Below, in pieces: positions 7,830 to 36,919 of a DNA stretch of 36,942 bases. The notes beneath the pieces were generated by a model that worked only from the letters and a program-made list of their open reading frames with translations, had not been told where the DNA came from and ran no database searches. A program made the translations under genes and the position numbers. The number at the start of each line of letters is the position of its first letter. Position 1 is the first letter of the stretch. The stretch comes from Phycisphaerales bacterium (lineage in GTDB: Bacteria; Planctomycetota; Phycisphaerae; WQYP01). The DNA is taken from contig DAHVEJ010000017.1 of NCBI GenBank assembly GCA_027313145.1, positions 1 through 36,942 of the forward strand, given 5' to 3'.

Positions 7830-7858
7830 TACATGGATATGATTTTAAGAAAATAGTG

Positions 7859-21121: not shown

Positions 21122-21196
21122 CGGGGCGTAGCTCAGCTTGGCTAGAGCGCTTGGTTCGGGACTAAGAGGTCGCAGGTTCGAATCCTGTCGCCCCGA
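21122..21196 (+). tRNA. tRNA-Pro (anticodon CGG)
   Basis: All 75 bases fold into a standard cloverleaf. CGGGGCG pairs with CGCCCCG in the acceptor stem and A73 follows. The D stem is GCTC/GAGC, and the anticodon stem CTTGG/CTAAG closes the loop TTCGGGA with anticodon CGG. The T arm is GCAGG, TTCGAAT, CCTGT. CCA is not encoded. The first base C is typical of bacterial tRNA-Pro. Its last 14 bases belong to the 16-bp attachment repeat of the island. Confidence 0.95.
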
Positions 21197-22659
21197 TTAT
21201 CTGGCGGAACAAGCCCTTTGGTGAGAACATCAAAGGGTTTTCTCATTGAAAAATCAAGGGTTTCTTCTTTTAACGTCAAGTTCAAACAAACAATTTCCAG
21301 TAGCTGCCACTTTTCCTGGCTTTCCGCTGTAAGCCATTTATCTTTCAGGCTTTGTGAAAGTTCAAACACTTTCAACGCCAAATCCCCATGTTCATCACGG
21401 CCCCGGCCTTGGGCTTGCAACTGCAATTCCAGACTCGCCAGGCGATCCCGCAATTCTGTATCCTTGGCCGCATAGGTATCGGTGGTGATTTCTTCCATGA
21501 TCCGCAAGTTCAATAGCCGGTCCCGGAATTGCTTGGCTTGCGTGATCTGCCGCTGCAAATCCTTGGCCGTATCTTCCGTTTCACTCCGCTGCTGTTTAGA
21601 CCATGCCAGCAGGCTTTGCTGGAACCAATGCCGTAGTTCATCGGGTAAGCGGATGCGATCAAAGAGTTCCAGCACCTGCACGTCCAATGCGTGTTCCGTC
21701 AAGCGAACGCGGGGATGCCCCGGCGTGATGTATCTGGAACATCGGTAATAAACATACTCCTTGCCAGTCTTCTTTTTCGTCACCGATTCCCCGGTAATCA
21801 CCGCGCCACAGTGCCCGCAGAGAATTAAGCTGCCCGCATAGGTGAGATCATGGCCCTGGTATCGTTTGCCGCCCAGCAGAACCTGTACGCGGTCGAATGT
21901 GGCCCGATCCACCAAGGGCTTATGCTTTCCGGCATACCACTGATCTTGGTATCGCACTTCCCCGATATATGCCCGATCCCGCAGAATGGAATGAATCTTG
22001 CTGCGGGTCCACTGGGGCATGGTATCAATGTACGTGATATTCTCCGCTTCCAGTTTCTTACGCATACTGTCAATGGTATGGTTTTCATAGGCGTACATCT
22101 GAAACAGGCGTTTCACTTTCTCCGCCTGTTGGTCATCCACTTCGATCAATCCCCGCCCATCAATCCGGATATTCCGGTATCCGTAAGGCGCAGCACCGCA
22201 GAACAATCCGCTCTGCACTCTCCGGGCATGGCCCTCCCGTACATCCAACCCTTGCTGTTCTGTGGTGTAACTGGCGAACATGGCCAATTGCCGCCGCATC
22301 ATTCTCCCAGCCGGGCTATTGTCGGTGGGCTGGCTGGTGGAGATGAACGGAATGCTGTATTCCGATTCCAGCCTTTCAAGTTCAATGTAGTCATAGAGAT
22401 TCCGGGCCGCCCGATCCACTTTGTAGAACAGCAGGCCGTTTATCTCGGCGGCGTGTTCCTTGGCGTAGGTAATGAGTTCCCGGAAGGTTTTACGTTCATC
22501 CCGCCGAGTAGCCGTTTCGGCGATACGGTAAAGCTTGGTAATGCTGCCATCATGCCGCTGGGCATACGCCCGCAGGGCATCCTCCTGTACGTCCAGAGAG
22601 AACCCTTCACGTTCCTGTTCCCGACTGCTGACCCGTGCCAATGCGACATACCGTTTCAT
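21142..22659 (-). CDS. Large serine recombinase (island integrase)
   Basis: The 505-residue protein starts at ATG 22659, where the resolvase fold begins (MKRYVALARVSSREQ). Residues 1 to about 150 form the catalytic domain: Arg9 and Ser11 (nucleophile) in RVSS, and Asp82, Arg83 and Arg86 in KVDRAARN. The Recombinase domain follows (APYGYRNI; WTRSKIHSILRDRAYIGEV), then a zinc ribbon-like region (LCGHCGAVITGE; YYRCS) and a coiled-coil segment at about 370-420. Such enzymes cut and rejoin att sites for integration and excision. Oddly, the last 13 residues (IRTCDLLVPNQAL) are encoded by the antisense of the tRNA, beyond the att core, so this C-terminus was acquired on integration. The gene overlaps the upstream 103-aa ORF by 53 bases. 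Confidence 0.93.
   Translation of the reverse strand: MKRYVALARVSSREQEREGFSLDVQEDALRAYAQRHDGSITKLYRIAETATRRDERKTFRELITYAKEHAAEINGLLFYKVDRAARNLYDYIELERLESEYSIPFISTSQPTDNSPAGRMMRRQLAMFASYTTEQQGLDVREGHARRVQSGLFCGAAPYGYRNIRIDGRGLIEVDDQQAEKVKRLFQMYAYENHTIDSMRKKLEAENITYIDTMPQWTRSKIHSILRDRAYIGEVRYQDQWYAGKHKPLVDRATFDRVQVLLGGKRYQGHDLTYAGSLILCGHCGAVITGESVTKKKTGKEYVYYRCSRYITPGHPRVRLTEHALDVQVLELFDRIRLPDELRHWFQQSLLAWSKQQRSETEDTAKDLQRQITQAKQFRDRLLNLRIMEEITTDTYAAKDTELRDRLASLELQLQAQGRGRDEHGDLALKVFELSQSLKDKWLTAESQEKWQLLEIVCLNLTLKEETLDFSMRKPFDVLTKGLVPPDNRGDRIRTCDLLVPNQAL
21183..21198. repeat. Left attachment site (attL core)
   Basis: TCCTGTCGCCCCGATT, covering bases 62-75 of the tRNA plus two more. It is identical to 36173-36188, while the flanking bases differ (A against G before it, A against T after it), which defines the core. 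Confidence 0.88.
21214..21241 (+). terminator. Terminator for tRNA-Pro, inside the recombinase coding region
   Basis: CCCTTTGGTG (21214-21223) and CATCAAAGGG (21228-21237) form a 10-bp stem with one G-U type pair and an AGAA loop, followed by TTTT (21238-21241). It lies 17 bases past the tRNA and is antisense to the recombinase codons for KPFDVLTKG. Confidence 0.65.
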
Positions 22660-22918
22660 GTTTGTTGACCCCCGACAAGACCGCAAAGAGATTACCAACA
22701 TTCAATAGAATGCCAATAGCATCCTTGGCCGTCAAGGGTTCACTGTAATAGGGCTGCCAGACACGTAGCGTTTCGGCAATCAGATCGGCGGTTATCCAAG
22801 CAGGTAAACCGGCGGGCACAGCCCGCGCCGCGGTGGCGGCATCAGGATCAACCCGCCGGTCAACCGGCGCGTTGACCACACTGTCTTTGGGGAATCCATT
22901 TATGCGTTGCATGATCAT
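22607..22918 (-). CDS. Small protein translated with the recombinase
   Basis: The 103-residue frame starts at ATG 22918, just after GGTGGG (an in-frame ATG at 22912 is an alternative), and overlaps the recombinase start by 53 bases. Its core (LPAWITADLIAETLRVWQPY, then SEPLTAKDAIGILLNVGNL) reads like a compact helical domain. The open frame extends to 23383, but the upstream part lies antisense to a convincing gene and reads like non-coding sequence. I do not recognise a family. Its position suggests a recombinase accessory, for example a directionality factor or regulator, but that is inference only. Confidence 0.65.
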   Translation of the reverse strand: MIMQRINGFPKDSVVNAPVDRRVDPDAATAARAVPAGLPAWITADLIAETLRVWQPYYSEPLTAKDAIGILLNVGNLFAVLSGVNKHETVCRIGTGQQSGTGT

Positions 22919-23044
22919 CCCACCGCCAGGCGGCGCAAACATCCGTCTATTGCTCCGCGTGAAGTCAACCCGCAGGCCCACGCGAATAAGGTTGGCCGCC
23001 GGAACACACAAGCCCAGCCGAACAACCCTAACATCATACAAACA

Positions 23045-23093
23045 CAGTATGGCATTGTCATTATAAAAGTCAATGTCCTTATTAAAGTCAATT
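23045..23093 (-). promoter_or_regulatory. Direct repeats over the recombinase promoter region
   Basis: TTATAAAAGTCAATG (23061-23075) and TTATTAAAGTCAATT (23079-23093) match at 13 of 15 positions with an 18-bp period. On the minus strand each carries TTGACT. The right copy's TTGACT (23086-23091) precedes TATAAT (23060-23065) by 20 bases, and the left copy's TTGACT (23068-23073) precedes CATACT by 16. The repeats therefore overlap likely -35 and -10 boxes of the leftward operon and suit an operator. Confidence 0.45.
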
Positions 23094-23164
23094 GGCGTTG
23101 CGCAGCTATGCCGCCTGATGCACAGCTTGCCGAGGGACGGAGCGCTCTGTAGACTGTGTCTCTT

Positions 23165-23413
23165 ATGGCCAAACGAACCAAACCAGTAAAGATCACCAAG
23201 AGTGTCGGCAAACCCCTGACCGTCCAGAGAACGTACCGGTTCAATACCGAACTCTTTGAATCCTTTGAGGAAGATTGTGCCCGGCATCTGGCCAATCCCA
23301 AGCTGGTGCTGGAGGCGCTGATTCTCCACTGGCTGGAAGGTGACGCCAAGGCCCGTAGCACCATCGCCATGCGGCACCGCCAACGGTTTGGATTGTCATC
23401 CCATGACGAGTGA
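23165..23413 (+). CDS. Small basic DNA-binding-like protein (possibly ribbon-helix-helix)
   Basis: The 82-residue product starts at ATG 23165 (an in-frame GTG lies at 23156) and runs divergently from the recombinase operon. After a basic N-terminus (MAKRTKPVKITKSVG) comes LTVQRTYRFNTELFESFEED, then CARHLANPKLVLEALILHWL, a strand-helix-helix order like Arc/CopG proteins. No enzymatic motif is present. Its position beside tandem repeats over the divergent promoters fits a repressor of the recombinase operon. The fold is guessed from pattern, not from a match I can show. Confidence 0.6.
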   Translation: MAKRTKPVKITKSVGKPLTVQRTYRFNTELFESFEEDCARHLANPKLVLEALILHWLEGDAKARSTIAMRHRQRFGLSSHDE

Positions 23414-23622
23414 TTCGCCCTTCGGCATCGGCTCCTATCATTACCAAGACGCCGCGCTGCGGCAACGTTCCACCGGCATCATCAATGGTGTAAAGACCGT
23501 GCTTTGCCCTCGGCCTGCGCCGGGCAACCGTCGCGCCCTCGCTACGTTCTACTCCGCTCCGTCACGCCGGATTGCTCCGGCTCCAGCCGGTGCAAAGCAC
23601 TGGCCGAAACACCCTTCAGACC

Positions 23623-23668
23623 GCCCGCCTTGGCTTCCCGCCACCTGACGTGGAAGGCCAAGGTGGGC
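23623..23668. other. Long hairpin in the gene-poor stretch
   Basis: GCCCGCCTTGGCTTCC (23623-23638) pairs with GGAAGGCCAAGGTGGGC (23652-23668) around a 13-base loop. About 14 pairs form, with small bulges. No T-run follows, so it is not a typical terminator. Confidence 0.45.
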
Positions 23669-25270
23669 TATGTTGTGGAGACAACCGAATGGACGAGTGG
23701 GAGGGTTTTGAAAGCTCCCGCCACTGGCATTGGTGAGATGTAAACAACTGGCCGGCGCGATGTTCGGAGGCGGTTACGAATCGCCGGTGGAGGTTCTCCG
23801 GTCCCCTGACGTCCACGGTTTCCGGAGAAGTAAATGCCAGGCCGCCGAGGGACGCTTCACACCGACTGGCTCGGCTTCGTGGCTGGTTTTGCCGCGCCCC
23901 GTGACATCGACAAGTTGGCGTTCCGCACCGTTGTCCGCCGTCCCGTGTCGGCAGATGGCCACGTCACCAATAAGGATACTTGCTGTCTCCCGCGCTGGCT
24001 TTTCGCGCTGCTTGTTGCGCCAGCCAACGGCTCCCGGTGCTGCCGACTGGCCGCGCTAGCGGTATGTCAGGCAGGCTATATTATTTCCCAGATCAGACCG
24101 ACTGATCAATCGCCAGATTCTCCCGGAATGTTCGCACGCAGGGCGCTCCGTGAAACCCTAATAGCCTTTCCCGCCCGGTTCCCAACACCGTCATCTTCCG
24201 TGTCGAACCAGGCCGGAGGATGGCCCGAAGCCAACCCAATCGACTCCGCCACTGCCCCCACCGCCGGACGGTAGCGTTACCAGTGCGCAGCCCGGCCAAC
24301 GGCTTCCGCCGAAGGTTCACCGCACTGCCAACGCACCTGTTTTTCGCGTAACATCAGTGCGCTCCGCGTGCCTGCCAAAATGACAAATGGCCTCCCGAAG
24401 GGCGCATCCGGTGCAGCGCAGATTACCGCTTCCGGCACCACACATAAGCTCGGCCATGACGGGTTCACACCTTGGCCGGAGCATCGCATCAACGCTAGAA
24501 GTTCCCATCCCAGAGCGCCGTACTCGCCGCCAACTTTCGCGTTGCCATGCTCGCTTGCTCGGTTGATCGGCAAGGTCTCCAAATAATCCCAAAGCGTTGA
24601 TTTCAGATATTGAAAAGTGGAAGGCAAGAGTAAAAGACTTGGCATCCCGATTCTTGTATCTCTTTGCTTTTAAAACACTTAAGTGGCATCCCATCATTTT
24701 TTCCGGATGCCATTGGCTGCCGGACTTTTCGGCAGAACCCAGTGGAATCCAGCCAAACGCATCAGGTTCTTTGCAAGTGGTGGCGTAATGCACACTTACG
24801 AAATTCTGGGTTCTGATTCTTTTAACTTGCCTTCCAAATTTAACTCATATTCCATTGCCAAACATCCACAGACTTCAAATGCGTTTGTCATTGTTAAATT
24901 TATCTAAGTTAATGCTATCAACCGAATGCCGGAAATCAGGTCGGCGGGAGCTTGCGGGCGGCCCTCTGGGCGATCCATTGGGGACTGGGCATGACCTTCC
25001 ATATGGGGTTGTTTACACGGGTAGGGGCGGCTCGGAATAGAGTCTGAGGTGGTGGGGATGGAGTGATCAATCGGAATGACCAAGGGCATTGGCGGCGCAA
25101 CGGAAGCAATGCCCAGATGCCGGTGCAAGCCGATGGAAAACGATCGGCTACGCCAAGAATCTGAGGCAATCCAGTGGCGCAACGGACGACATGCGGACGA
25201 TGAAGATGTAGCATTATCGACCCCTCATGGAACACTCCGGAAGCTTTTTATGATTTCATTTCTATTGTGC

Positions 25271-25300
25271 TTGACACCACGGATGGCGGCGCGTTATCGT
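25271..25300 (+). promoter_or_regulatory. Candidate promoter of the RHS operon
   Basis: A perfect TTGACA (25271-25276) is followed after 18 bases by TATCGT (25295-25300). It lies about 110 bases before the first gene of the operon. The -10 box is weak. Confidence 0.35.
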
Positions 25301-25412
25301 TCCCTCGTCGCTTGCAGTTTTTGGCGACCCGCTCCAAGGCTGCAGCCGTTTCATTTTCGGTTGCCTGGTGGGGCGGAAATGGGTTTTCAACATCTTAGTG
25401 GAGCGTGCTCGT

Positions 25413-25700
25413 GTGGCGCAATTCACGATTTTTATCGCCTACATTCTCTCGGCCATGGGCCTTGCGATCTTGGTTGTCTGGCCGGAGGACGGCCCGGGGG
25501 CTTTCGTGCGGGAAAAGCTGTTCAGAAAACTGCTTCCCAAACCCGCGCACGGCGTGTTGGATTGTTACATCTGTTTCGGTTTCTGGACGGGATTGGTTCT
25601 GTCGATCCCTTGGTGGTGCATCTACCGCCAAGACTGGATATGGTGCGGCTGCTTGATGGTGCCAACTGTGTTCTGGCTGGCCACGGGCAAATCGAAATAG
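25413..25700 (+). CDS. Small CxxC membrane protein (DUF1360-like)
   Basis: Starting at GTG 25413, with GGAG 9 bases upstream, gives 95 residues beginning MAQFTIFIAYILSAMGLAIL; the frame is open farther left, but without a ribosome site. Three hydrophobic segments are visible: about 4-24, 50-70 and 75-92. The motif DCYICFGFWTGL, two cysteines at the membrane edge followed by FWTG, resembles the CPxCxxFWxG motif of DUF1360 phage and bacterial membrane proteins, whose role is unknown. It opens the operon that leads to the RHS gene; the next start is 27 bases downstream. Confidence 0.75.
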   Translation: MAQFTIFIAYILSAMGLAILVVWPEDGPGAFVREKLFRKLLPKPAHGVLDCYICFGFWTGLVLSIPWWCIYRQDWIWCGCLMVPTVFWLATGKSK

Positions 25701-25727
25701 CCGAGTTAATCACGGAGTGAAAAGGTC

Positions 25728-25997
25728 ATGGCGTGCTGCGGCGGGCGAAAACTTCTGGAACAAGGGCGGCAGTTGCAAGGTCAACCTTCACGCACTGCGG
25801 CCGGTGCGCAGCGCCCAACCGACGGTCGCCCGGCGGTTGCATCAAACAGTTCCGCAGTGCGCGAGCTTCTCCGCAAAGCGCCGCAGCGTCCAAGCCAAAC
25901 GCCGGGGACCCGGCAGCGGGCCGCACCGTCGGCAGAACCGCCGCGATTCGCCCAGTCGCCCGCTGAACCGGTGTTTGGGCGTCGGGGCGCTCCCTGA
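25728..25997 (+). CDS. Small Pro/Arg-rich CCGG protein
   Basis: The 89-residue product begins MACCGGRKLLEQGRQLQG and continues with a Pro, Arg, Ala and Gln-rich disordered sequence. AGG precedes the ATG by 2 bases and a GAG lies farther upstream. Codon-position use is GC-biased as in its neighbours, and the short gaps on both sides fit the operon. No family recognised. The adjacent cysteines recall the CC pairs near the start of the RHS protein, hinting at metal or disulphide chemistry; this is speculative. Confidence 0.6.
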   Translation: MACCGGRKLLEQGRQLQGQPSRTAAGAQRPTDGRPAVASNSSAVRELLRKAPQRPSQTPGTRQRAAPSAEPPRFAQSPAEPVFGRRGAP

Positions 25998-26091
25998 CGC
26001 GGGTGGATGGCTCCAATAAACGGGGAGGGGCGGAATTGCTCGGGTACTGCAATGGTTGGTCAGAACGTCTTATTAGTGCGGAGCGGGTTCA

Positions 26092-27138
26092 ATGGGAAAC
26101 ACTCAGAACTGCCAGTTTATCGGGGCCACGCTGTGCCCCGGCTGCAGCGGGACATCGCCGCTCTGGATCAACAGGGCATTGCTGGCTGGCCGCAGCTTAG
26201 GCGGTGGCGGCTCGTTTACCTACGACGGGGCGTGCTACTCGATTCCCGCCAATGCGCAGCCACAAAAGCCCAGCGGCGGTGGTTACGCCAGCGCTGGTTA
26301 CATAGGCGAGACATCGCCCGGTTGCGCCAACTGCTGTGCCGTCAAACCGGAGTCGGTTTTTTTCGATTGCAGCGGCACGGGCACTGCGACCGTTAATGTC
26401 TCCGGCCCGCCAGATTCGACCGTCTATCTTTCATGGAGCAGTTGTTATCTGGTGGTTAATGGCGTTGGACCAAACATCGCCGGGGGCAGCACAAGTATCA
26501 CGCTGGGCAGCAGCGGTGGCACCTTTACGGTGGGGACATCCAGCAGCGTGTGTCCGATTCCCTGCCCCGGCGGCCCGGCTGGCGTCAACGTAGGGACGAG
26601 CCCGGGCGGAGACCAATGCGGCAGCGTTGCAATCTATACGGGCTGTATGCCCTGCCCTGAGACTCCCACGACCCTGACAGCCAAAATCACGTTGCCGGTC
26701 TCCACGCTGGATTCTGGTGGGTACGGCTGCCATACCATCAACCAGGCCAGCGGCTCTTATACACTTCAACCGGCAAGTTCAGGCCCCGGTGCCGCCAGTT
26801 GCGGATGGGCCAAGAGTTGGGCACCCACGTATAACCTGCCGTTGGTTTTGGAAATACAGTGTGTCAGCGGAAGCGCATCGTACCCCGGTACTGAGGCAGG
26901 CCAACTGTATTGGCAATTTTCGATCGGTGGAAGCAGCCCGCCCGCAATATGTTATTGCTCCAATGGCCAGACACCGCCGAGTAAGATGCAAACCTTGCAG
27001 CTCTACACTGGTTACTTAAAGTACGAAGGTCCTGTACCGTTGGGTACCTGCACCCTATTAGACGTCCCGTTCGGCTACGACCCTGCGTACCCGCCGTGCC
27101 CCGGCCCCGGACCAGCCACGGTTGCAGTGAGTAATTAG
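26092..27138 (+). CDS. Cys-rich beta-type protein of unknown function
   Basis: The 348-residue product starts at ATG 26092, 8 bases after GGAG. It is rich in Cys, Gly, Ser, Thr and Pro (TLCPGCSGTSPLW, CANCCAVKPESVFFDCSG, CMPCPETP), with alternating hydrophobic residues suggesting beta structure and many possible metal or disulphide sites. There is no signal peptide or transmembrane segment. No family recognised. It lies between the CCGG protein and a glycosyltransferase-like gene, with 27 bases to the next start. A structural or tail-like surface component, or a partner of the RHS protein, is possible from context only. Confidence 0.75.
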   Translation: MGNTQNCQFIGATLCPGCSGTSPLWINRALLAGRSLGGGGSFTYDGACYSIPANAQPQKPSGGGYASAGYIGETSPGCANCCAVKPESVFFDCSGTGTATVNVSGPPDSTVYLSWSSCYLVVNGVGPNIAGGSTSITLGSSGGTFTVGTSSSVCPIPCPGGPAGVNVGTSPGGDQCGSVAIYTGCMPCPETPTTLTAKITLPVSTLDSGGYGCHTINQASGSYTLQPASSGPGAASCGWAKSWAPTYNLPLVLEIQCVSGSASYPGTEAGQLYWQFSIGGSSPPAICYCSNGQTPPSKMQTLQLYTGYLKYEGPVPLGTCTLLDVPFGYDPAYPPCPGPGPATVAVSN

Positions 27139-27165
27139 GCGGCTGGGGCCGCTGATAGGAAACCT

Positions 27166-28254
27166 ATGAGAAATCTTCCCGGCCATCACGTTTATTCGCT
27201 TCGCCCGGCCCACGCGCGAGGGCGGGGCGGTTCGGTGCCGCTGGATCCGGTGGTGGCCTGCACACTGGCGCTTGGCGCGTTGCATTGGCGAAAACACAGC
27301 GGCCCGATGCGGTTATATGCTGACTCTGAATTCGCGGCGTTTATCGACGGCCTCGGCCTGAGTTGGATTTATGACGCCGGGATTGATACGGCGGTGCTCG
27401 ATGCCATGCCGGATTGCATCCGCTACGACACATTTTGGGTTGCACCGAAGGTCTTTGCTTATCGCGCAGCAGCTTTGCCGGCGGCATTTCTGGATGTTGA
27501 TCTGGTGGTTTGGAAGCCGGTTGTCAACTGGGCTGAGTTCGATGTGACTTTTCTACATCGTGAGTTCACTGAACGCGGGGACGGAACGGGCTATGCGGTT
27601 CCCTCAGGTTATAACCGTCCCGCGTACCCGTGGGATGGTGAGGAATTCAACTTGGGATTCCTCATTCTCAATAACGAGGAGATCGGGGAAGAGTCCACAA
27701 CCCAGGCCATCCGCTTCATGTCCGACAATCCCGGAAGCGACCCATTCAACCACGCCTGCTTTGCAGAGCAGTATTTATTGGCCCAGTGCTCCAAGGCCCG
27801 CGGTGCCAGGGTGAGGGCATTGCTGCCGGGGCCGCCGCACGATGAAAGCGTTGCCACGCACCTCTGGGGTGATAAACAAAAGCTCCGGGAAGAGCCGGTT
27901 CGCGCGTGGGCGTTGGTGAATCGCTATATCGAACGGCTCAAACAGGATTTTCCGGAGCATGTTTCCGGGATGAACCGCCTGTTTGCGTGGGCGTCCTCCG
28001 TTGCGGAAACGGCGGCACGCCAGGCGCAGAACAATCGCCGCAACGCTCCGGAATTGCTGCGCCGCACGGTTCGGCCGGTTCCGGCGGCGGTTACACCCCC
28101 GGTACACACTGCCGAGAGATTAAGACGCCCGGCGATCAAGCGGCCTGATGCGGCGGCAGAGCCGAGGGTCGCCGGGCGCTTCGCGATACAATCCCCATTG
28201 AGAAAGTCGAGGCCCTTGGGCACGCGCCAGAACCGTGCGGCGGCATTAACCTGA
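27166..28254 (+). CDS. Glycosyltransferase-like protein (resembles DUF6734)
   Basis: The 362-residue product starts 5 bases after AGGA. Residues about 25-270 look like a GT-A nucleotide-sugar transferase fold. PMRLYADSEFAAFIDGLGL is followed by FWVAPKVFAYRAAALPAAFL, the DxD-type FLDVDLVVW (Asp110, Asp112) and EFNLGFLILNN. This order recalls DUF6734, whose substrates are unknown. The C-terminal 90 residues are Arg/Pro/Ala-rich and probably disordered. Its place in the operon, 27 bases before the RHS gene, suggests that it glycosylates the RHS protein or a neighbour, which is inference. Confidence 0.68.
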   Translation: MRNLPGHHVYSLRPAHARGRGGSVPLDPVVACTLALGALHWRKHSGPMRLYADSEFAAFIDGLGLSWIYDAGIDTAVLDAMPDCIRYDTFWVAPKVFAYRAAALPAAFLDVDLVVWKPVVNWAEFDVTFLHREFTERGDGTGYAVPSGYNRPAYPWDGEEFNLGFLILNNEEIGEESTTQAIRFMSDNPGSDPFNHACFAEQYLLAQCSKARGARVRALLPGPPHDESVATHLWGDKQKLREEPVRAWALVNRYIERLKQDFPEHVSGMNRLFAWASSVAETAARQAQNNRRNAPELLRRTVRPVPAAVTPPVHTAERLRRPAIKRPDAAAEPRVAGRFAIQSPLRKSRPLGTRQNRAAALT

Positions 28255-28281
28255 AATACTATGACGAGGAGTAATTGAACC

Positions 28282-31200
28282 ATGGCTGCAAATTTGAATA
28301 ACTGCCAGACCATCCCGCCGGGGCCGGGCCCCAATCCTAATCCTAATCCAAATCCCCATCACCACCATCACCACCACCACCACCACCATCATCACCATCA
28401 CCCCCATCCTAAGCCTAGCCCGTGTACCGGCAGTTGCTGCGGATCGAGCAGCGCAGTGAGTTCTTTTCCGCTTGGCACGACAAGCACCAGCCAAAGCAAC
28501 TCGGTCATGCTGGCCACCGGCGAGTTTATCTTCTCACTGGATTTGCTTTCCGCGCCGGCCATTGGCGGAGGCTCGTGGCAGCTTTCCCTGCAATACCTCT
28601 CCAATAACGGCGTTGACGACATTGTGGGCCTTTACTGGAACTACAGCCAGAATTACCAACTCATCCAGCTTCCCAACGGCGATATTGTGTTGATGACCCC
28701 TGATAATCTTCAGGAAACCTTTATCTATAACGGCAATGGCCAGTGGCTTTCGGGATACAACAGCACGCAGGCCACGCTGGTGGAAATCAATGCCGGAACT
28801 GCCAATGACACATTTATACTTACCAGCAACGCCGGCACGGTGACGGAATTCTTTGGCTTTTATTCTTCGATCACCACGCCGGGCCGGATGAAAAGTACCA
28901 CCGATCGGTACGGCAACAGCCAGACGCTTACCTGGACCGCCACGGGCGGGGTCGTGCAACTGGTTTCCGTCACCGACGCCTATGGCCGAACAATCACCTA
29001 TTCCTATTACAACGCCACCTACGGCTACAAATGTAGCGGCATCGCCGACTTTCTGGGAAGACAGATCAACTTCCAATATGATTCCGCCGGACATCTGGTG
29101 GCGGTGGTATTACCCAGCATCAATAACGCCGCACCGGGCAATACTTTCCCCGACGGCACAGCCTACGTGTTCCAATATGATGTCAACAACACGGACGCCA
29201 ACCGCCAGAACGATCTGGTCGGCGTCTGGTACCCTAATCAGACGCAACCTTACGTAAGCAATCGAGCGGTGGATGTCGCCACAGTCTATGCCAACGCCAC
29301 GCCGCGATATGTTATCACCTACGGCCAAAGCTCCGGCCCAACCATCGCCTACGGCGCGGTAGTCTCCGAAACCGTCGGCGACCCCGCCAATGGCGTTGGA
29401 GGTACTTATACCTTCAGCTACAGCAATACCGGCCTTCCCGCCAACATCATCGACCCCACCGATCCGATTGTCAGCCAGACCACCATGACCGACCGCAACG
29501 GTAACATCAAAATATTTAACTTCAACTACAACGGCATGGTCGTCATGAAACAGGAAAACACCAATCGCAACAAATCCAGCCTGGAAGTAGGCCCATATAT
29601 CACTTGGACGCAATACAACGACCAGAACCAGAAATTACTGGAAGTATTGCCCGCCGGGAATTCCATCGCTTACTCATACGATACCGGCCTGATCGACTTC
29701 GGCTCCGGGCCGCAATTATATCCACCCAGAAGGGGATTACTGCTCTCCGAAACCCAGTACCCCGGCAACAGCATCGGTGTACCCAGTCGCCCCGGCTCCA
29801 ATGGCCAAACGCAATTAACCAAAACGTACTTTTACGACCCGATATACAACCAGGTATGCGCGGAAATTAACGAAAAGGGCAATCCCATTGCCGTCAGCAG
29901 CGGCGTAAATGTTTACTTCACACCGCAGAACGGCGGCACCACGCCCACCGATGCCAATCGCAGTCGTTACGCCACGATCACTTATTATGACTATCAGAAA
30001 AATCAGACCACCACCATCACCGGCTCCAGCGCCCTGCAAAACCTGCTGGGGCTTACCGCCGCGCAGATACAAAGCCTGATTGCGTATGCCGGCAACCAGA
30101 TGATCGCCGGTGGATTACCCAACGGTTTCCAGACCAATCTGGGCAATATCAACGGCGATGGTACCGGTGACGGTAATTCCTCCGGCCTTTCTCCCGCCGC
30201 CATGCTCGGCAGCGTGGTGAAGGTCCAACAACCTTCAGTTTACCAGCTCGTACCCTCCACCGGCTCCACGCCGTGGGTCTGGCAGACCCAACTGATAATG
30301 GAACTTTACACCAACAACTATGCCGGGCAAACCACCACGTATACCGACCCGGAAGGCAATTTAACTGTGTACGTCCGTTACCCGGAAAATGATCCCGAGG
30401 GCAATGGCGAATATGCCGCAACGTTCCTGTCCAACCGGCAGTATGGCCGATTGCGGGAAGTACACGTTGATGCCAATCCAGATCAGGTTATGGATCTCGT
30501 TGGGGAAGATGGCGATTTAACAGCTTTCACCGGTAATATCATCTCCCGCACCAACACTCCCGCCCAATATCTTGATCTGGTAACCCGTTATGAAGGAGGC
30601 ACCGGCTCCGCCGGCTGCCCCACTTGCGCCTACGACCCGCTGGGCAATCCATTGGCATCCACCGATCCCAACGGCAATACGACCAGCTACCTGCGCACGG
30701 AAATGGGCGAGCCATACCTGCGTACCGGCCCGGCCCCCTATCTCTTCCAGAGCCAAAGCTACTACGATTCCAATCGCAACACCGTTCGTGTGGATACGCA
30801 GGACCAACAGGTGGCTTACGAATCCCTTGATCCCAACGATCCGGATTTTGCCCAGTTTATTCCTTCCGGCAACGGTTCATCCACCGCCAATATTCCCATG
30901 CAAAACGGCCCCGGCGGAACCGTCCGCCCCGGCTGGTTCACCAATTTATACACCTTTGACATTCTTGATGACAGAATTCAAGATGACATCGACGCCACCG
31001 GCTCCAACCCCGCCAGCTTGGTAACCAGCTACAGCTTTGATCCCAACCAAAACACCGTTCAAATAACCAAACCCAACGGCAACATCGTGCAATACGATTA
31101 TGATGAACGCAATATTCGCATAGCCCAGAGAATCGGCTATGTCGCCGGTTCCGATCCCGGCTCGGTTACGGTAAGTGTTTTTGACGCCAATGGTAATCTG

Positions 31201-34200
31201 CTGGATATCATTGGCCCAGCGCAAAGGGGCACCAGTAATAACAGCCTCAGCGTCACCATCTCCAATGCCTTTAACTCCGGCAGTTCTTTGATCCAAACGG
31301 GCGATTGGCTACTGGCCAACACCTTAGATGGCTTTGACCGTGTGATTACCGCCACCGACGCCATCGGCGATCTGACCAACAATACCTTCGATCCCACCGG
31401 ACAGAATATTCAAAGGCAGATTCTCGGCAGCCCCAACGGCCCGACGCCCACCAATCGCAACGGCAACACCAATGTGCCCCTGGAGCTTGTGCAAACCCGC
31501 TACGATGAAGCCGGGCGGCCTTATGAAAACCAACAGAATGTCTTTCTCAATACCGGTCTTTCCGGCGGTACACCGACCAACAATATCCCTTCAGGCAGAA
31601 CCGCCACTCACACCGGTGGTGGTTTGGCGGCCAATTCCACCACCAACACCAACACGGGCACGGTAACACTGACCACCGGCGGCCAGAGTTATACGCTTTC
31701 CCGCACCGTCTTTGACCGTTCCAGCCGGAACACCGGCAGTGGTATGGATAATGGGACCGTTACCACCACCGCCTATGACGGTGCCAATCGCCCGATTCTG
31801 ACCACCGATGATCTGGGCAACACCACGGCCACAGCGTTTGATAACAATGGCAATCCAGTCAGTGTCACGCGAACCGAATTATCCACGATTACCCAACCCG
31901 TCCAGACGTCGGAAGTGTTTATTACGCTGATGGCATGGGACTGCATGAATCGGCAGGTGCTTATCGCCCAACCGGGCTCGGATGGATCCATTGCCAGCCA
32001 GAAGGGTGTGAATCTCGCCCGCATTACACTCACCGGCTATGACAGCCGGGGCAATGTAACATTAAACATTGATCCCAACGGCAATACCATCGTTACACTC
32101 TGGGATGGAGCCAATAGAAAACTCGAAACCCGGCAGCATCTGCGCCAGAACGGCCTGGGCAGCAATCCCCCCGTCAACAACGGCAATGGCCAGAGCACTA
32201 CCTTTAACACTTCTGGCCAGGGCCAGATCGCCGGGAGCATTCAGACGAGCTTTGAATATGATGGCAATTCCAACCAGACCGCCATGGTGGATGATCGCGG
32301 CGGCGTGACGCGCTGGGCCTTTGACCCGCACGAACGCAAAATCTCGCAGACTTTTCACGACGGCTCGACCGAAATTTTCGTTTATGACTTAGCCAGTGAT
32401 GTGGTGCAATATACTGATTGCAATGGCTCGAAGTTTACCAATACTTGGGACCCCATGGGCCGGAAAGTAAGTACAACCATCGCACCCGCACCAGGCATCG
32501 GCGGTACCACCGCCCAAAGCTTCCAGTACAACGGCTTGGCTCAGACCACGTTTGCCCGTGATACCGCCAACGGCAACAATGCCGATGTCACGCTGGTATA
32601 TGATTCCATCCAGAGAACGGTCGAGGAGGCACAGACCTACGGCGGCAATACCCGGTATGTTACCAACAACGCCTTTACATCGTTGCCGGTAAGCCAATTC
32701 ACATTCCCCAATGCCCGGCAGATCAACAGCAGCTTTGACGCCCTGTATCGCCGCCAGCAGATTGTCGAAGCGGCAACCAGTGCGGTCATCGCTAGTTGGC
32801 AATACTTTGGTCCCGGCAGAGTGGCGGAAGTCACCTTGGGCAATGGCGTCATTCAAACCATGCTCAACAACGCCAGGACCCACAGTGCGGTGCAGTTCGG
32901 CACGGTTCCGAATCCACCTTGGGGTACGCCCTCCACTGACCGGCTGGGCTATGACGGCTCAGGCCGCATGATCGCCAAACGCTATCTTGCTGGCGGCATC
33001 AATTCCACCACATTTGCGTACAACAACACCGCACCCGTGGTGGGCAACACCACCGCCTTTGATCCGGCGGATAACAAATTCTATGAACGGGCGTTGCACG
33101 CGGAGAATCGGAGTTTTTTATACCAACCGGTGGATAACAATGGTAATATCGCCTCACCAACCCCTGGTTATGATTCCATCAATCGATTGCTGCAATATCA
33201 GAGAGGAACATTAAGCAGCACTGGCGGTTATCAGAATGCTGGCGGCGGAAGCGTAGCGGCTCCCATTACCTTGCCGGACTCGGCTGCGCTGCGAACCTAC
33301 GATCTGGACGGTCTGGGGAACTGGAAGCTCAGTGGTGCGGAACTGATTAGCTCCCACCTGACCTTCGATCAGCGGAATCACAATAAGCTCAATGAGATCA
33401 CTCAACGGACCGTGGGAACCAGCCCAGTGGCCAGCCCTCGGTACGACTGCCAAGTCGGTGCGTCCAATGGCAATCTGGCCGACGACGGCACCACATTGAC
33501 CTATGCGTACGACTCGCTCAACCGCCCAATTTCCATCGGATTCGTCGGTGCCGGGCCTCGCCCGCCGCAACAACTCGGTTCCTATGTCCTGGACGCCTTT
33601 AACCGCAGGATTCGCAAGACGATTTCCAACGGGGGGTTGTCTTCGGCAGTTCCCAATGGCACGACGGATTACGCCTACATGGGCAATCAGGTGGTGGAGG
33701 AACGCAATCCCCTCGGCGGGTCAGGCTCAACCGATACGCCGATCCGGCAATATATTTGGGGAACCTATATTGATGAGTGCATCCAGCTGACGACGCTTGC
33801 AACATTGGGCGGCGGGAACCTTGCGCCTGGGACCTACTACCTTCTGCAGGACCTCCTGTACCGTGCCGTGGCGCTGACGAATTCAACCGGCGCTATCGCT
33901 GAAGCTTATGACTGTGACGCCTACGGAAATACGATTATCTTCACAGCCCCGTACCAAGGGAATTGGTGGTCGGACAACGACACGCAATCATACTACGGTG
34001 CGAATGAAGTCATTTTCTGCGGCTACAGATTCGATCCGGAAACGGAATTGTATTACGTCCGCAACCGCACCTACAACCCCACCCTTGGCCGCTGGCTGCA
34101 ACGCGACCAGATCGGCTACGCCGGCGGCGTGAATTTGTACGAATATGTCGGTGGAAATCCGACGGTGAGCCTCGACCCCGAAGGCGAATGCCCGGCCGGC

Positions 34201-34770
34201 TATCGGGAATTCTCGGCGGCGGGGATCGCGGCTTGGGAGGCGGCCCACGGTGCCAAGGCGATAAGAGAGTGGATTGATCCATCGCTCAGGGCACAATATC
34301 CCGCCTCAGCGTTAAACACTGACCCATTTCTGCAGGGGCTTCCGATTCCGCCAATGTGCCAACCGAACTGCAAACAAGTAGGATATTGCGTGAGCATTGG
34401 TTCTCCCGAGGCTGTCGGGAAACGGCATATCATCTCCCACGGAAAGTGGCACTATCTTCATACAACTTACAAAATAATAAAAGTTGGTCAAAGTGTGACG
34501 GAGGTACCATCGCAAAACATATGTCAGCGCGCGGTGAAATATTGGAGCCATGTTCAGCGCCGTGGCGATTTTCTGATCGAATACACCTGTACGGGCTATG
34601 GCATCAGTAACTCAGGCGGACTTCAGTCTGGTGTTCCCTATACCGTGGATGTGTATTACGGATCGGTCGACTGGCTAACGAGCGGAAAAAGCGGGGGTAC
34701 CTACGAACAGAGGAAGGCGTTTGACATTAACCCGCTCCTCGGCGGCGGAGGAGGAGGTGCCTGTGGATGA
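28282..34770 (+). CDS. RHS/YD-repeat protein with poly-His N-terminus and variable C-terminus
   Basis: The 2162-residue protein starts 10 bases after GAGGAG. Residues 17-25 are a Pro-Asn repeat and residues 26-40 are fifteen His, followed by CTGSCCGSSS (Cys48, 52, 53). The body carries many YD repeats (YDEAGRPYEN, YDGANRPILT, YDSLNRPIS), which build the RHS beta-cocoon. The hyperconserved core end is at 1914-1969 (GYRFDPETELYYVRNRTYNP through GRWLQRDQIG to DPEGE). The last 193 residues are unlike the core, as in polymorphic toxins, but I recognise no toxin family. There is no signal peptide. The next gene overlaps its stop by 8 bases, as immunity genes often do. It could instead be a non-toxic surface or wall-associated RHS protein. 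Confidence 0.93.
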   Translation: MAANLNNCQTIPPGPGPNPNPNPNPHHHHHHHHHHHHHHHPHPKPSPCTGSCCGSSSAVSSFPLGTTSTSQSNSVMLATGEFIFSLDLLSAPAIGGGSWQLSLQYLSNNGVDDIVGLYWNYSQNYQLIQLPNGDIVLMTPDNLQETFIYNGNGQWLSGYNSTQATLVEINAGTANDTFILTSNAGTVTEFFGFYSSITTPGRMKSTTDRYGNSQTLTWTATGGVVQLVSVTDAYGRTITYSYYNATYGYKCSGIADFLGRQINFQYDSAGHLVAVVLPSINNAAPGNTFPDGTAYVFQYDVNNTDANRQNDLVGVWYPNQTQPYVSNRAVDVATVYANATPRYVITYGQSSGPTIAYGAVVSETVGDPANGVGGTYTFSYSNTGLPANIIDPTDPIVSQTTMTDRNGNIKIFNFNYNGMVVMKQENTNRNKSSLEVGPYITWTQYNDQNQKLLEVLPAGNSIAYSYDTGLIDFGSGPQLYPPRRGLLLSETQYPGNSIGVPSRPGSNGQTQLTKTYFYDPIYNQVCAEINEKGNPIAVSSGVNVYFTPQNGGTTPTDANRSRYATITYYDYQKNQTTTITGSSALQNLLGLTAAQIQSLIAYAGNQMIAGGLPNGFQTNLGNINGDGTGDGNSSGLSPAAMLGSVVKVQQPSVYQLVPSTGSTPWVWQTQLIMELYTNNYAGQTTTYTDPEGNLTVYVRYPENDPEGNGEYAATFLSNRQYGRLREVHVDANPDQVMDLVGEDGDLTAFTGNIISRTNTPAQYLDLVTRYEGGTGSAGCPTCAYDPLGNPLASTDPNGNTTSYLRTEMGEPYLRTGPAPYLFQSQSYYDSNRNTVRVDTQDQQVAYESLDPNDPDFAQFIPSGNGSSTANIPMQNGPGGTVRPGWFTNLYTFDILDDRIQDDIDATGSNPASLVTSYSFDPNQNTVQITKPNGNIVQYDYDERNIRIAQRIGYVAGSDPGSVTVSVFDANGNLLDIIGPAQRGTSNNSLSVTISNAFNSGSSLIQTGDWLLANTLDGFDRVITATDAIGDLTNNTFDPTGQNIQRQILGSPNGPTPTNRNGNTNVPLELVQTRYDEAGRPYENQQNVFLNTGLSGGTPTNNIPSGRTATHTGGGLAANSTTNTNTGTVTLTTGGQSYTLSRTVFDRSSRNTGSGMDNGTVTTTAYDGANRPILTTDDLGNTTATAFDNNGNPVSVTRTELSTITQPVQTSEVFITLMAWDCMNRQVLIAQPGSDGSIASQKGVNLARITLTGYDSRGNVTLNIDPNGNTIVTLWDGANRKLETRQHLRQNGLGSNPPVNNGNGQSTTFNTSGQGQIAGSIQTSFEYDGNSNQTAMVDDRGGVTRWAFDPHERKISQTFHDGSTEIFVYDLASDVVQYTDCNGSKFTNTWDPMGRKVSTTIAPAPGIGGTTAQSFQYNGLAQTTFARDTANGNNADVTLVYDSIQRTVEEAQTYGGNTRYVTNNAFTSLPVSQFTFPNARQINSSFDALYRRQQIVEAATSAVIASWQYFGPGRVAEVTLGNGVIQTMLNNARTHSAVQFGTVPNPPWGTPSTDRLGYDGSGRMIAKRYLAGGINSTTFAYNNTAPVVGNTTAFDPADNKFYERALHAENRSFLYQPVDNNGNIASPTPGYDSINRLLQYQRGTLSSTGGYQNAGGGSVAAPITLPDSAALRTYDLDGLGNWKLSGAELISSHLTFDQRNHNKLNEITQRTVGTSPVASPRYDCQVGASNGNLADDGTTLTYAYDSLNRPISIGFVGAGPRPPQQLGSYVLDAFNRRIRKTISNGGLSSAVPNGTTDYAYMGNQVVEERNPLGGSGSTDTPIRQYIWGTYIDECIQLTTLATLGGGNLAPGTYYLLQDLLYRAVALTNSTGAIAEAYDCDAYGNTIIFTAPYQGNWWSDNDTQSYYGANEVIFCGYRFDPETELYYVRNRTYNPTLGRWLQRDQIGYAGGVNLYEYVGGNPTVSLDPEGECPAGYREFSAAGIAAWEAAHGAKAIREWIDPSLRAQYPASALNTDPFLQGLPIPPMCQPNCKQVGYCVSIGSPEAVGKRHIISHGKWHYLHTTYKIIKVGQSVTEVPSQNICQRAVKYWSHVQRRGDFLIEYTCTGYGISNSGGLQSGVPYTVDVYYGSVDWLTSGKSGGTYEQRKAFDINPLLGGGGGGACG
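34747..34758 (+). promoter_or_regulatory. Shine-Dalgarno run that favours GTG 34763
   Basis: GGAGGAGGAGGT, inside the last codons of the RHS gene (its Gly run), ends 4 bases before GTG 34763. Confidence 0.65.
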
Positions 34771-35605
34771 GGGTACGCGATCCGCTGGAGCAGTAGCGAC
34801 CGGCTTGGCGGCTTGGCTTCCCCGCCAACCGCGAAAAGGATTAGGGGCCGGCGCAATTTTCTGCGCCACTGCAGCCCTATTCGTGGCGGATGCGCTGAGC
34901 CTATGGGTGATACATTCCAGTCCAAACCAACTGCTAGCTAGCCCACGTTTCTGGATAACATGGTGGGTGGCAGTATTTCCCGCGCTCGCACTTCTTAATT
35001 CGGTGGGACTCTGCGCAGGGGTATGTCTCTGGGTTGCACCAGAGGCCGCTAATCTGAGTTTCTGTGGGCGCGCGGGGCCTGTGCTCAGTCGCACGGCACC
35101 AGCCGCCACCTTGTTCGCGGCGGCCGACGCGGCGCTCACGGGACTCCGCGTGTTTTTCCCGCCGGTGGCTCTCGGCGGCGGCCCGTTACCGCTATGGGGG
35201 ACAGTATCCTTCAGGGTACTCGGATGGATTAGCGCCCTTCTCGGTGTACCGTTCGCCTGGTGGCTTTGGCGTACCATACACGCGGTGGTTCACGTTCGCC
35301 TGCCCGGTTGGCAGCAGGCAGCAGCTGCGCTCTCATGGCTGTGGCCTGCGCTACTCGCTGGCTGGCTTGTGGTCGGGGTCCTCCAAGCTTTTCCCATGCC
35401 TCCCGCAGGGGCTGACTTAAGCTCACCAGCGATCCTGTTCCTCCGGGTATCGGCCGACGTATCAGCCCTGCTTCAAGTTACGGCCGTGGTGATTGATGTA
35501 GCCTCTCTGGCACTATTGCTGGCGCTTCAAGCACCTTATTGGGCTAGCTGGTGCGGACGCGAAAAGGGGGCATCCACCCGTTCCACTAGACGGGCGCGGG
35601 AATAG
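34763..35605 (+). CDS. Multi-pass membrane protein, candidate RHS partner or immunity protein
   Basis: GTG 34763, close behind a GGAGGAGGAGGT run, gives 280 residues and overlaps the RHS stop by 8 bases; the frame opens from TTG 34721. About six hydrophobic helices are visible, including AIFCATAALFVADALSLWVI, FWITWWVAVFPALALLNSVG, WPALLAGWLVVGVLQAF and VASLALLLALQAP. The C-terminus is basic (REKGASTRSTRRARE), probably cytoplasmic. No family recognised. Overlap with the RHS gene suggests coupled translation and a partner role. Immunity against the RHS C-terminal domain, or membrane anchoring or export of the RHS protein, both fit. Confidence 0.72.
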   Translation: MDEGTRSAGAVATGLAAWLPRQPRKGLGAGAIFCATAALFVADALSLWVIHSSPNQLLASPRFWITWWVAVFPALALLNSVGLCAGVCLWVAPEAANLSFCGRAGPVLSRTAPAATLFAAADAALTGLRVFFPPVALGGGPLPLWGTVSFRVLGWISALLGVPFAWWLWRTIHAVVHVRLPGWQQAAAALSWLWPALLAGWLVVGVLQAFPMPPAGADLSSPAILFLRVSADVSALLQVTAVVIDVASLALLLALQAPYWASWCGREKGASTRSTRRARE

Positions 35606-36172
35606 GCCACGGTGAATCGCCCCTCGAAATGTTGACGAGCATATTTTGCTTGGCACCGCGTATAGCGGCCCAGCGAATTGTGTAAGGAGCTAATATCCAT
35701 GATAAGGGATGATTTGCTGGTTGTATAATGGCTGGATGATATGGAATTATGGCAATAGGTAGAACAATTTCGGCGTCTTACGCCCGCTCTCGGTCGAGAA
35801 ATTCCCGCCCTGCGCGCGGTCGGGGCGCGGATGGGGGATTTCCATCTTTTCGCCCTGCATTTTGCCGCCACTGCTCAAGCCGCTTTGCGGACCTGGACAT
35901 CAACGAGCGGCAATCGCGGATCGCCGCGATAGTTTCTGCGTGCGATTTCGATTTGAATGGTTGGCCCGTCACGGGTTCGGTAGGCCACCGGTTTCAACAG
36001 CGCTTTGCCACAGTGGGCTTCTTCGGGCGTTCTGATTCCCAAGGCGCTGTGCGGGCGGCAGGATGAGCACTTTCCCGAGGAAAGAATCAGGGATTATGTT
36101 TATCCTCGTACACAAGTGACCCAAAGACGTTCGTTTCTGCCGAAACGCCACCGGCAAAAAGTTCTATTGGTG
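35606..36172. other. Right end of the island with decayed sequence
   Basis: No intact gene is convincing. The interval holds a transposase tail on the minus strand and, next to the att core, an in-frame extension of the recombinase. A short minus-strand frame from ATG 35700 (MDISSLHNSLGRYTRC) lacks a ribosome site and overlaps the membrane-protein gene, so it is not called. Confidence 0.55.
35875..36064 (-). pseudogene. Transposase C-terminal remnant (integrase-core, IS3/IS481-like)
   Basis: The minus-strand frame from about 36062 to a TGA at 35875 reads CRPHSALGIRTPEEAHCGKA and ends LPLVDVQVRKAA. RPHSALGxRTPEE is the standard end of rve-type transposases. The catalytic part is absent, and the homology begins about 25 bases from the recombinase-tail stop, so this is a truncated insertion-sequence remnant. 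Confidence 0.7.
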
Positions 36173-36188
36173 TCCTGTCGCCCCGATT
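36087..36188 (-). other. Alternative recombinase C-terminal segment at the right att site
   Basis: On the minus strand the att core reads AAT CGG GGC GAC AGG A, in the same codon frame as at the left end. It continues TPIELFAGGVSAETNVFG and onward to a TGA at 36087, 28 residues past the arginine. In the excised circle this would replace the 13 tRNA-derived residues of the recombinase. Confidence 0.65.
36173..36188. repeat. Right attachment site (attR core)
   Basis: TCCTGTCGCCCCGATT, identical to 21183-21198 at the tRNA-Pro 3' end. Sequence to its right should be the original downstream flank of the tRNA. Confidence 0.88.
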
Positions 36189-36206
36189 TTGGCCGGAGGC
36201 CAAAAT
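36186..36206. terminator. Perfect 9-bp hairpin after attR, possible original tRNA terminator
   Basis: ATTTTGGCC (36186-36194) and GGCCAAAAT (36198-36206) form a perfect stem with a GGA loop directly after the att core. Before integration it would have followed the tRNA immediately. No clear T-run follows, so its terminator role is uncertain. Confidence 0.4.
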
Positions 36207-36335
36207 AGAGCAGGAGTTTTGAGAGAGTAGATAGTAGAGCAAAATTCGGCTGGGACAAAAGCGTGGCTGTCGCCGAGACACAACGCGACTCCTGCGGTCT
36301 ACTTTCAACTCTCGACTCTCAACCCCGGAGCAATT

Positions 36336-36698
36336 ATGGCCTTCGCTTTTGAAAAACTCATCGTCTACCAGAAAGCCATTTCCTACGGCGACTGCATTTG
36401 CGCCATCACCGAAAACTTCCCAGGTGGTTACGGTTTCCTTTCCGACCAACTCAACCAGACGTCCGTTTCCATTGCCGCCAATATTGCGGAAGGCAATGGA
36501 CGATTCACCATTCCGGACCGGAGAAATTTTTTCATGATCGCCAGGGGATCCGTGCAGGAATGTGTAGCACTATTGGAAATTGGGTTTCGCCGAAAGCTCA
36601 TTGCGTTGGATATTCATCGTCAGCGTCGCAGCGGTCTGGAAGAAATTTCCAAAATGCTCTCCGGCCTGATCAACGGCTTGGGAAACCGGAAGGCATAA
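36336..36698 (+). CDS. Four-helix-bundle protein (S23/intervening-sequence family)
   Basis: The 120-residue product starts 5 bases after CCGGAG. It shows the family pattern: FEKLIVYQKAISYGDCI at the start, then LSDQLNQTSVSIAANIAEG, RRNFFMIARGSVQECVALLE and a final amphipathic helix. These small helical proteins, first seen in 23S rRNA intervening sequences, occur widely in planctomycetes and relatives; their function is unknown. The usual QxRRAxxSI stretch is altered here to QLNQTSVSI. It lies outside the island. Confidence 0.88.
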   Translation: MAFAFEKLIVYQKAISYGDCICAITENFPGGYGFLSDQLNQTSVSIAANIAEGNGRFTIPDRRNFFMIARGSVQECVALLEIGFRRKLIALDIHRQRRSGLEEISKMLSGLINGLGNRKA

Positions 36699-36871: not shown

Positions 36872-36919
36872 TGTTTCAATAGAAATGTCACCCCCTTGTT
36901 TCAATAGAAGTGTCACCCC
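36872..36919. repeat. Two 23-bp tandem repeats, probable insertion-sequence end
   Basis: TGTTTCAATAGAAATGTCACCCC (36872-36894) recurs at 36897-36919 with one change (AAATG to AAGTG), period 25 bp. Tandem TGTCACC-type repeats are usual transposase-binding sites at the ends of IS481-like and Mu-like elements. The element itself would lie beyond the window. Confidence 0.55.

Follow-up and report, generated by a model that had tools for sequence, protein, structure and literature searches.

Positions 21183 to 36188 of contig DAHVEJ010000017.1 (Phycisphaerales bacterium, assembly GCA_027313145.1), studied as part of a window of 36,942 nucleotides (nt), very probably represent an integrated genomic island that was inserted at a tRNA-Pro gene by the large serine recombinase that it encodes. 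A 15-kb island at this tRNA had been proposed in the first-pass annotation, and the proposal is supported by characteristics that can be read in the sequences themselves: empty sites in relatives, four types of junction, sharp breaks of identity at the repeated core, and a family-wide association of the recombinase with tRNA genes. Relatives are cited by genome (G), contig (C) and locus (L) numbers. The features of the window that define the island are the following (ORF, open reading frame).

21122-21196, plus strand: tRNA-Pro(CGG), the target gene, intact (ARAGORN); the same tRNA and the upstream DNA on the side of the presumed gltB gene are found in the empty sites L066 and L067.
21183-21198, plus strand: left core of attL, the tRNA-recombinase junction (exact repeat; identity to G005 of 84% in the left flank and 92% on the recombinase side).
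21142-22701, minus strand: large serine recombinase (Pfam Resolvase, Recombinase and Zn_ribbon_recom), likely start codon at 22659, last ~19 codons antisense in the core and the tRNA.
36156-36172, plus strand: conserved right arm of the island, AAAAAGTTCTATTGGTG type, putative attP half-site (arm plus core found in 19 of the 61 genomes compared, the reversed control in none).
36173-36188, plus strand: right core of attR (exact repeat; empty-site continuity; identity falling after the core in three further pairs).
36189-36697, plus strand: chromosomal right flank, with the hairpin TTTTGGCC..GGCCAAAA and a PF05635 four-helix-bundle ORF (Pfam 2.1e-23; family copies; matches DNA 3' of tRNA-Pro in G007).

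The sequence TCCTGTCGCCCCGATT was found exactly at 21183-21198 and again at 36173-36188, with a spacing of 14,990 bp, confirming the coordinates given earlier for two exact 16-bp repeats, one of them at the 3' end of tRNA-Pro. Allowing up to 2 mismatches, the window contains 2 matches against 0.05 expected, and 2 or more matches were obtained in 0 of 100 shuffles; no third core site was detected in the window at this threshold, and the island is therefore taken as one unit. The only tRNA of the window according to ARAGORN is tRNA-Pro(CGG), and the left copy spans its T arm and acceptor plus 2 nt past the gene. Directly inside this copy lies the large serine recombinase, as previously annotated, whose ORF enters the tRNA antisense. 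An imperfect symmetry (GTTC/GAAC), seen by eye only, would put the crossover at the middle of the core and is not claimed here.

The genomes of 61 relatives, the window's own included, were compared. For two contigs from congeneric genomes (G002:C88 and G007:C127), the match to the window ends at 21198 and does not continue into the recombinase. In G002:C88, DNA 93% identical to the upstream part of the window over 4.4 kb is followed by tRNA-Pro(CGG) and then by the window from 36173 onwards (84% over 210 bp), and the corresponding values for G007:C127 are 88% over 11.6 kb and 82% over 517 bp. The gene upstream of this tRNA is, judging from its sequence, presumably gltB. In both contigs tRNA-Pro runs directly into the right-hand flank, which is the empty site foreseen in the first-pass annotation. 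A sister island is present in G005:C6, also at tRNA-Pro(CGG), with a recombinase 96% identical and RHS-like DNA 66-71% identical to those of the window. The concern that relatives might carry the recombinase and the RHS genes without the repeats is answered by this contig, the nearest relative in which recombinase and RHS genes are both present, and on which both the tRNA-recombinase and the arm-flank (hairpin) junctions are found, ~17.7 kb apart. Its identity to the window is 84% in the chromosomal DNA left of the tRNA and 92% on the recombinase side; from this comparison the boundary of the island is visible in divergence too.

All four expected junction classes are present in the genus and the family. 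The tRNA-hairpin junction (attB form) is exemplified by L066, L067, L084 and L086, the tRNA-recombinase junction (attL form) by the window and L068-L078, and the arm-hairpin junction (attR form) by the right end of the window, C53, C273, L089 (twice) and L094 (twice). The arm-recombinase junction (tandem or attP-like form) was found in L076, where two islands lie in tandem, an arrangement consistent with excision as a circle. A search for the arm AAAARGTTYTATTGGTG plus the core, allowing at most 2 mismatches, gave 35 places, distributed over 19 of the 61 genomes, and none for the reversed control pattern. The right flanks of 33 of these places (all except G002:C123 and G000:C44) were read manually, being hairpin in 24, recombinase in 1, other in 7 and ambiguous in 1. 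The suggestion that the right copy could be part of an unrelated array of tRNA fragments fails as stated, the right copies being a family of island ends with a conserved arm and a tRNA-Pro core.

Three further arms showed particular arrangements. L093 (G000:C197, 3813-3869) contains a palindrome, arm-TCCTGTCGTCCCGGGGCGACAGGA-reverse arm, cut at the contig end; an inverted junction, a hairpin and an artefact of assembly are all conceivable. In L092 (G000:C184, position 200) and L203 (G003:C142) the arms stand on cores with altered ends, CCCCGGGA and CCCCGAGG, respectively, and the right flank has neither hairpin nor recombinase; these are possible secondary target sites or decayed ends.

In the assembled genome of the window TCCTGTCGCCCCGATT amounts to four copies, and the two additional ones, on C53 and C273, have both flanks in common with the right-hand copy of the window. 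These four copies were initially taken to speak against a junction at the right copy, a reading overturned by the empty sites. The right side of C273 matches the DNA after tRNA-Pro(GGG) in G007:C215 and runs on to the side of a gene that we take to be rpsT. Since no more than a single tRNA-Pro 3' end and a single recombinase of this type are assembled, the most plausible reading of C53 and C273 is that each is the right end of an additional island at another tRNA-Pro gene, with its left half missing from the assembly.

The DNA to the right of 36188 belongs to a dispersed element, with 24 matches in the window genome, that consists of a hairpin (TTTTTGCC..GGCAAAAATAGAGCAGG) and, in some copies, a PF05635 ORF. 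It is located directly 3' of tRNA-Pro, of several tRNA-Arg and of tRNA-Gln, and near tRNA-Leu, and may be another tRNA-linked element. Copies were recorded at window 36189-36697 and on C53, C50, C306, C233, C291, C145 and others. Near the contig end, at 36872-36919, the window also has two near-identical direct repeats of 23 nt with starts 25 bp apart. The abundance of this element bears on the explanation that there is no island and that chance, or a dispersed repeat without relation to it, accounts for the match of the 16-mers: the 16-mer occurs four times in the genome, three of the copies have both flanks in common, and the right flank is repeated 24 times. Such an explanation is extremely improbable, as the empty sites join tRNA-Pro directly to the flank (together with the four junction classes, this already refuted it), arm and flank are found in separate combinations, and identity breaks at the core. 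Moreover, elsewhere the repeat is found next to tRNA-Arg and further tRNAs, each of which has its own 3' end, and the Pro core is absent from the tRNA-Arg copies.

When island DNA is compared between genomes, identity stays at 96-100% as far as the core and falls abruptly just past it. Between G002:C63 and G005:C6 it is 100% in the 2 kb before the core, then 72, 60 and 26% in successive windows, while the DNA of G002 and G005 upstream of tRNA-Pro(CGG) is ~16% different. G008:C78 and G024:C44, which belong to different genera, have 4.9 kb in common at 99.5% identity, with 96% over the final 200 nt before the core and 58% over the next 64 nt. G002:C35 is equal to G024:C44 in sequence, flank included, and was not counted as a separate event because cross-binning could explain this identity. 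A cassette of 2.06 kb, with a single ORF of 420 aa and without recombinase, is 99.3-100% identical between G006, where it is inserted at tRNA-Pro(GGG), and G002, where it is inserted at tRNA-Pro(TGG), with the same cores at both ends; one right core of the pair carries a change. Upstream of the cassette the identity between both genomes is 79% (tRNA) and then ~30%, and downstream it is 60% and then 38%. In a second comparison of the pair, centred on the right core, the values are 99.7-100% before it and 61, 41 and 27% past it. Judged from these comparisons, movement is recent and site-precise.

The same data were considered in relation to homologous recombination at tRNA-Pro and hairpin repeats, by which islands and cassettes would have spread with the serine recombinase as a passenger. 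Although tRNA-Pro 3' halves and hairpins are repeated in the genome and the recombinase-free cassettes have no enzyme of their own, this origin is unlikely: outside the 16-bp core the homology is short, ~60-79% at the cassette ends, yet three pairs break at the core. In addition, the recombinase is intact and adjoins the core, and the arrangement recurs in relatives with 57-61% and even 30-36% protein identity.

The recombinase contains Resolvase, Recombinase and zinc-ribbon domains, in this order (Pfam 8.3e-18, 5.6e-15 and 2e-08, all over the cut-off). The N-terminal motif ARVSSREQ, in which the catalytic serine is presumably placed, was invariant in 7 aligned relatives. The nearest NCBIfam profiles were CcrB, XisF and CcrA, with a score of 84.3 bits for CcrB against an equivalog cut-off of 900. 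The gene runs through the core into the tRNA, and its last codons are therefore altered by integration: with TTCAAA in the tRNA the protein stops at RGDRI, with TTCGAA it runs on to RIRTCDLLVPNQAL, and in the tandem form the frame extends into the arm (RGDRTPIE...).

A family scan of genome contigs was based on the best 80 of 223 relatives of the recombinase, nearly all labelled Planctomycetota. Blastopirellula marina DSM 3645, Zavarzinella formosa DSM 19928 and Roseiconus nitratireducens were identified as carriers that are in culture. The 3' end of the recombinase gene overlaps an opposite-strand tRNA in 61 of the 80 loci (52 Pro, 5 Ala and 4 Ser), at a nearly constant offset. A narrow rule for tRNA fragments, which recovered 8 of the other 19 loci (84 of 8000 random windows), was replaced by a wider one, under which 16 lie at a T-arm plus acceptor fragment (75 of 8000 random windows); of the remaining three, 1 lies at an arm and 2 at neither. 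In a quick tree the Ala loci fall in one clade of 7 rows, two of them without a full tRNA, and 3 of the 4 Ser loci in another, both with support 100, which suggests target switching. The recombinases at tRNA-Ala(GGC) are those of L136, L150, L161, L173 and L175, and those at tRNA-Ser are L165, L169, L172 and L177. Outside the genus, in L133 (recombinase 60% identical), the tRNA ends in TCCAGTCGCCCCGA and the same 14 nt are found 6.9 kb away after the arm GAAAAAGTTCAACTGGTG and before a hairpin; core and tRNA have thus changed together at least once.

In IMG/VR, 43 relatives were detected, mostly 24-36% identical. Among 32 contigs examined, 13 recombinases are on a full tRNA-Pro and 4 on a T-arm fragment, 9 more contigs end a few tens of nt from the recombinase in sequence resembling the tRNA-Pro 3' end (manual reading), and 6 show neither. 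The predicted viral contigs L238-L264 have mostly 30-36% identity (one 58%) and are mostly at tRNA-Pro, several of them ending a few bases from the recombinase stop. GenBank phage and plasmid matches were all below 60% identity, those listed being 22.8-28.2%.

The constancy of this association bears on the explanation that a tyrosine-family integrase made the island and that the serine recombinase arrived later. Transfer RNA genes are the usual targets of tyrosine integrases, according to the portion of PMC4383910 available. Nevertheless, no such integrase was detected among the 9 window proteins searched in Pfam (not every ORF), and in the family as a whole the serine recombinase keeps its place at the tRNA, so that a tyrosine-type origin has very little probability.

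Several data weigh against the island at tRNA-Pro, or limit its extension to the family. Because the right flank of the window belongs to a repeated element, it resembles more than the flank of the empty sites: its best match is the attR flank of the G008:C78 island (84.7%), ahead of the G007 empty site (82.2%) and the tRNA-Arg(TCG) copy of its own genome (80.6%). The contig stops 754 bp past the core, and right-hand synteny cannot be extended. The 7 arm sites with other flanks join neither hairpin nor recombinase. The genomes of the genus are all fragmented assemblies, and binning errors are possible for the short island-only contigs G024:C44 and G002:C35. Finally, whole-genome search of TBK1r and of the H1_PLA3 chromosome (recombinases 57% identical) gave no second long core copy nearby, and therefore the long repeat is not claimed for the family at large. 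When 61 loci were searched for another copy of the core up to 10 kb from the recombinase, a convincing repeat was obtained for L133 and for L103, which is the L076 locus, and for no other; the few 11-nt core matches near the recombinase are at control level, and the 10-kb limit accounts for some misses.

According to the proposed mechanism, the circular attP would be composed of the right arm, a core equal to the tRNA-Pro 3' end, and the recombinase-side arm, and attB of the T-arm/acceptor end of the tRNA-Pro gene and the downstream hairpin, both being joined by the recombinase. The tRNA would stay intact because attP carries a copy of its 3' end. We infer that the serine recombinase catalyses this exchange at an exact crossover dinucleotide. 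All three tRNA-Pro isoacceptors of the genus share the core, which would provide several equivalent docking sites and allow tandem islands, and cassettes with the same ends and without recombinase would probably have been moved in trans.

Two small ORFs are located next to the recombinase.

22607-22912, minus strand: small unannotated protein of 101 aa, overlapping the recombinase start (tblastn in 74 of 80 loci; two-helix model; no Pfam match).
23156-23413, plus strand: small divergent ORF kept in sister islands (tblastn 87-88% in L068/L099 and L073/L100; no Pfam match).

The first lies directly 5' of the recombinase. It was detected by tblastn on the same strand in 74 of the 80 recombinase loci, at no more than 100 bp from the recombinase in 68, with a length of 66-108 aa where cleanly delimited and the consensus P.WIT.ELI..T..VWQPYY...LT..DA..I....G.LF.VL. 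No Pfam family was found for it. The AlphaFold2 model has a two-helix core (predicted local distance difference test, pLDDT, ~95 at residues 41-80, mean 70.6) and gave no meaningful match in the PDB (best E 4.6). An excisionase helix-turn-helix start was considered by eye in some longer relatives and was rejected, Pfam giving no support. Position and coupling suggest that this small partner is a candidate directionality or accessory factor. The second ORF is present in 2 of the 80 genome-scan loci; L068/L099 and L073/L100 are the same two contigs, each fetched twice.

The cargo of the island includes the following ORFs.

26092-27138, plus strand: ORF of the RHS operon (no Pfam, NCBIfam or PHROG match).
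27166-28254, plus strand: ORF with a weak DUF6734 match (Pfam 8.9e-05, under the curated cut-off).
28282-34770, plus strand: RHS/YD-repeat protein of 2162 aa (Pfam RHS_repeat; Rhs_assc_core 5.8e-18).
34721-35605, plus strand: hydrophobic ORF after the RHS gene (no family match in Pfam, NCBIfam or PHROG).

The 9 window proteins compared with Pfam include no relaxase and no product of a conjugation gene. A defence role for the cargo found no support in PADLOC, whose matches were weak or at the level of ATPases. Of the other islands, that of L076 (6.1 kb) carries a REP_ORF2-G2P protein and a caspase-fold protein, whereas a TraG/TrwB-like protein and one with a DnaJ domain are encoded in that of L133 (6.9 kb). 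In L076 (G023:C153) the caspase-fold gene (Peptidase_C14, 7511-8260) adjoins the right end of the island. An inovirus origin, prompted by REP_ORF2-G2P in that island, was rejected, as PHROG gave no support. Among the 80 genome-scan loci, L133 included, 24 have a coupling-protein-like ATPase and 15 have a DnaJ protein, and this recurrence hints at mobilizable elements.

Staphylococcal cassette chromosome (SCC) elements, mobilized by ccr recombinases, use a large serine recombinase, insert at the 3' end of an intact gene, and occur in tandem and as recombinase-free units. The planctomycete island would work alike, and its nearest recombinase profiles include CcrB and CcrA; SCC, however, inserts at the rlmH 3' end instead of tRNA-Pro, and the planctomycete recombinase scores far under the Ccr equivalog cut-offs. 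Islands described with Islander and TIGER are similar in having a tRNA at one end, a repeat of its 3' fragment at the other and the integrase inside, but in the accessible text of PMC4383910 'integrase' refers to tyrosine recombinases only, and serine-type islands fall outside the method as published.

The remark that a serine recombinase at a tRNA gene is less common was right and, if anything, understated: such integration is called rare, with phiRSM1 as the cited case, in the part of PMC3218068 consulted, and serine recombinases are not known to use tRNA genes according to that of PMC4383910. In PMC10654092, as available in part, an overlap with tRNA or tmRNA genes is given for 16 of 23 tyrosine systems, and six serine systems appear without mention of tRNA use; general statistics are found in sections of PMC12884075 and PMC12424338. 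The actinomycete integrative and conjugative elements (AICEs) of Mycobacterium are comparable serine-recombinase islands, 8 similar recombinases lying at one tRNA-Leu gene, but they belong to another phylum and use another tRNA, and neither passenger cassettes nor a small partner are mentioned in the portion of PMC3218068 at hand. Int/attP of phiRSM1, from Ralstonia filamentous phages, also combines a serine recombinase with a tRNA-Ser 3' end and a 13-nt core (PMC3816273, in part); its recombinase is small, resolvase-like and phage-borne, whereas the planctomycete enzyme is large, with Recombinase and zinc-ribbon domains. For the serine-recombinase phage vB_PamS_Pami6 of Paracoccus a tRNA-Met site was predicted, a single prediction, the other serine recombinases in the part of PMC6536676 available being without an identified site. 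No description of the Planctomycetota tRNA-Pro serine-recombinase family was found in the open-licence literature. The clade is widespread and little noticed, and it apparently carries passenger cassettes without recombinase too; its size and constancy, the precise passenger cassette and the partner protein are new.

A broader interpretation, on which our judgement is evenly balanced, is that the tRNA-Pro genes of Planctomycetota are shared docking sites of a modular cassette system. An ancient clade of tRNA-Pro large serine recombinases, with Ala and Ser offshoots, and a dedicated small partner would insert islands and move recombinase-free cassettes with matching ends in trans between isoacceptors, building integron-like arrays by serine recombination.

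The data describe a whole clade of serine recombinases at tRNA genes, with the target kept over very divergent proteins, and such islands would escape tools for which a tRNA island implies a tyrosine integrase. The clade provides natural sets of attP, attB, attL and attR and a retargeting series (Pro to Ala, Pro to Ser) for studies of site choice, and it offers, in a poorly studied phylum, a candidate family of directionality factors and a candidate passenger-cassette system.

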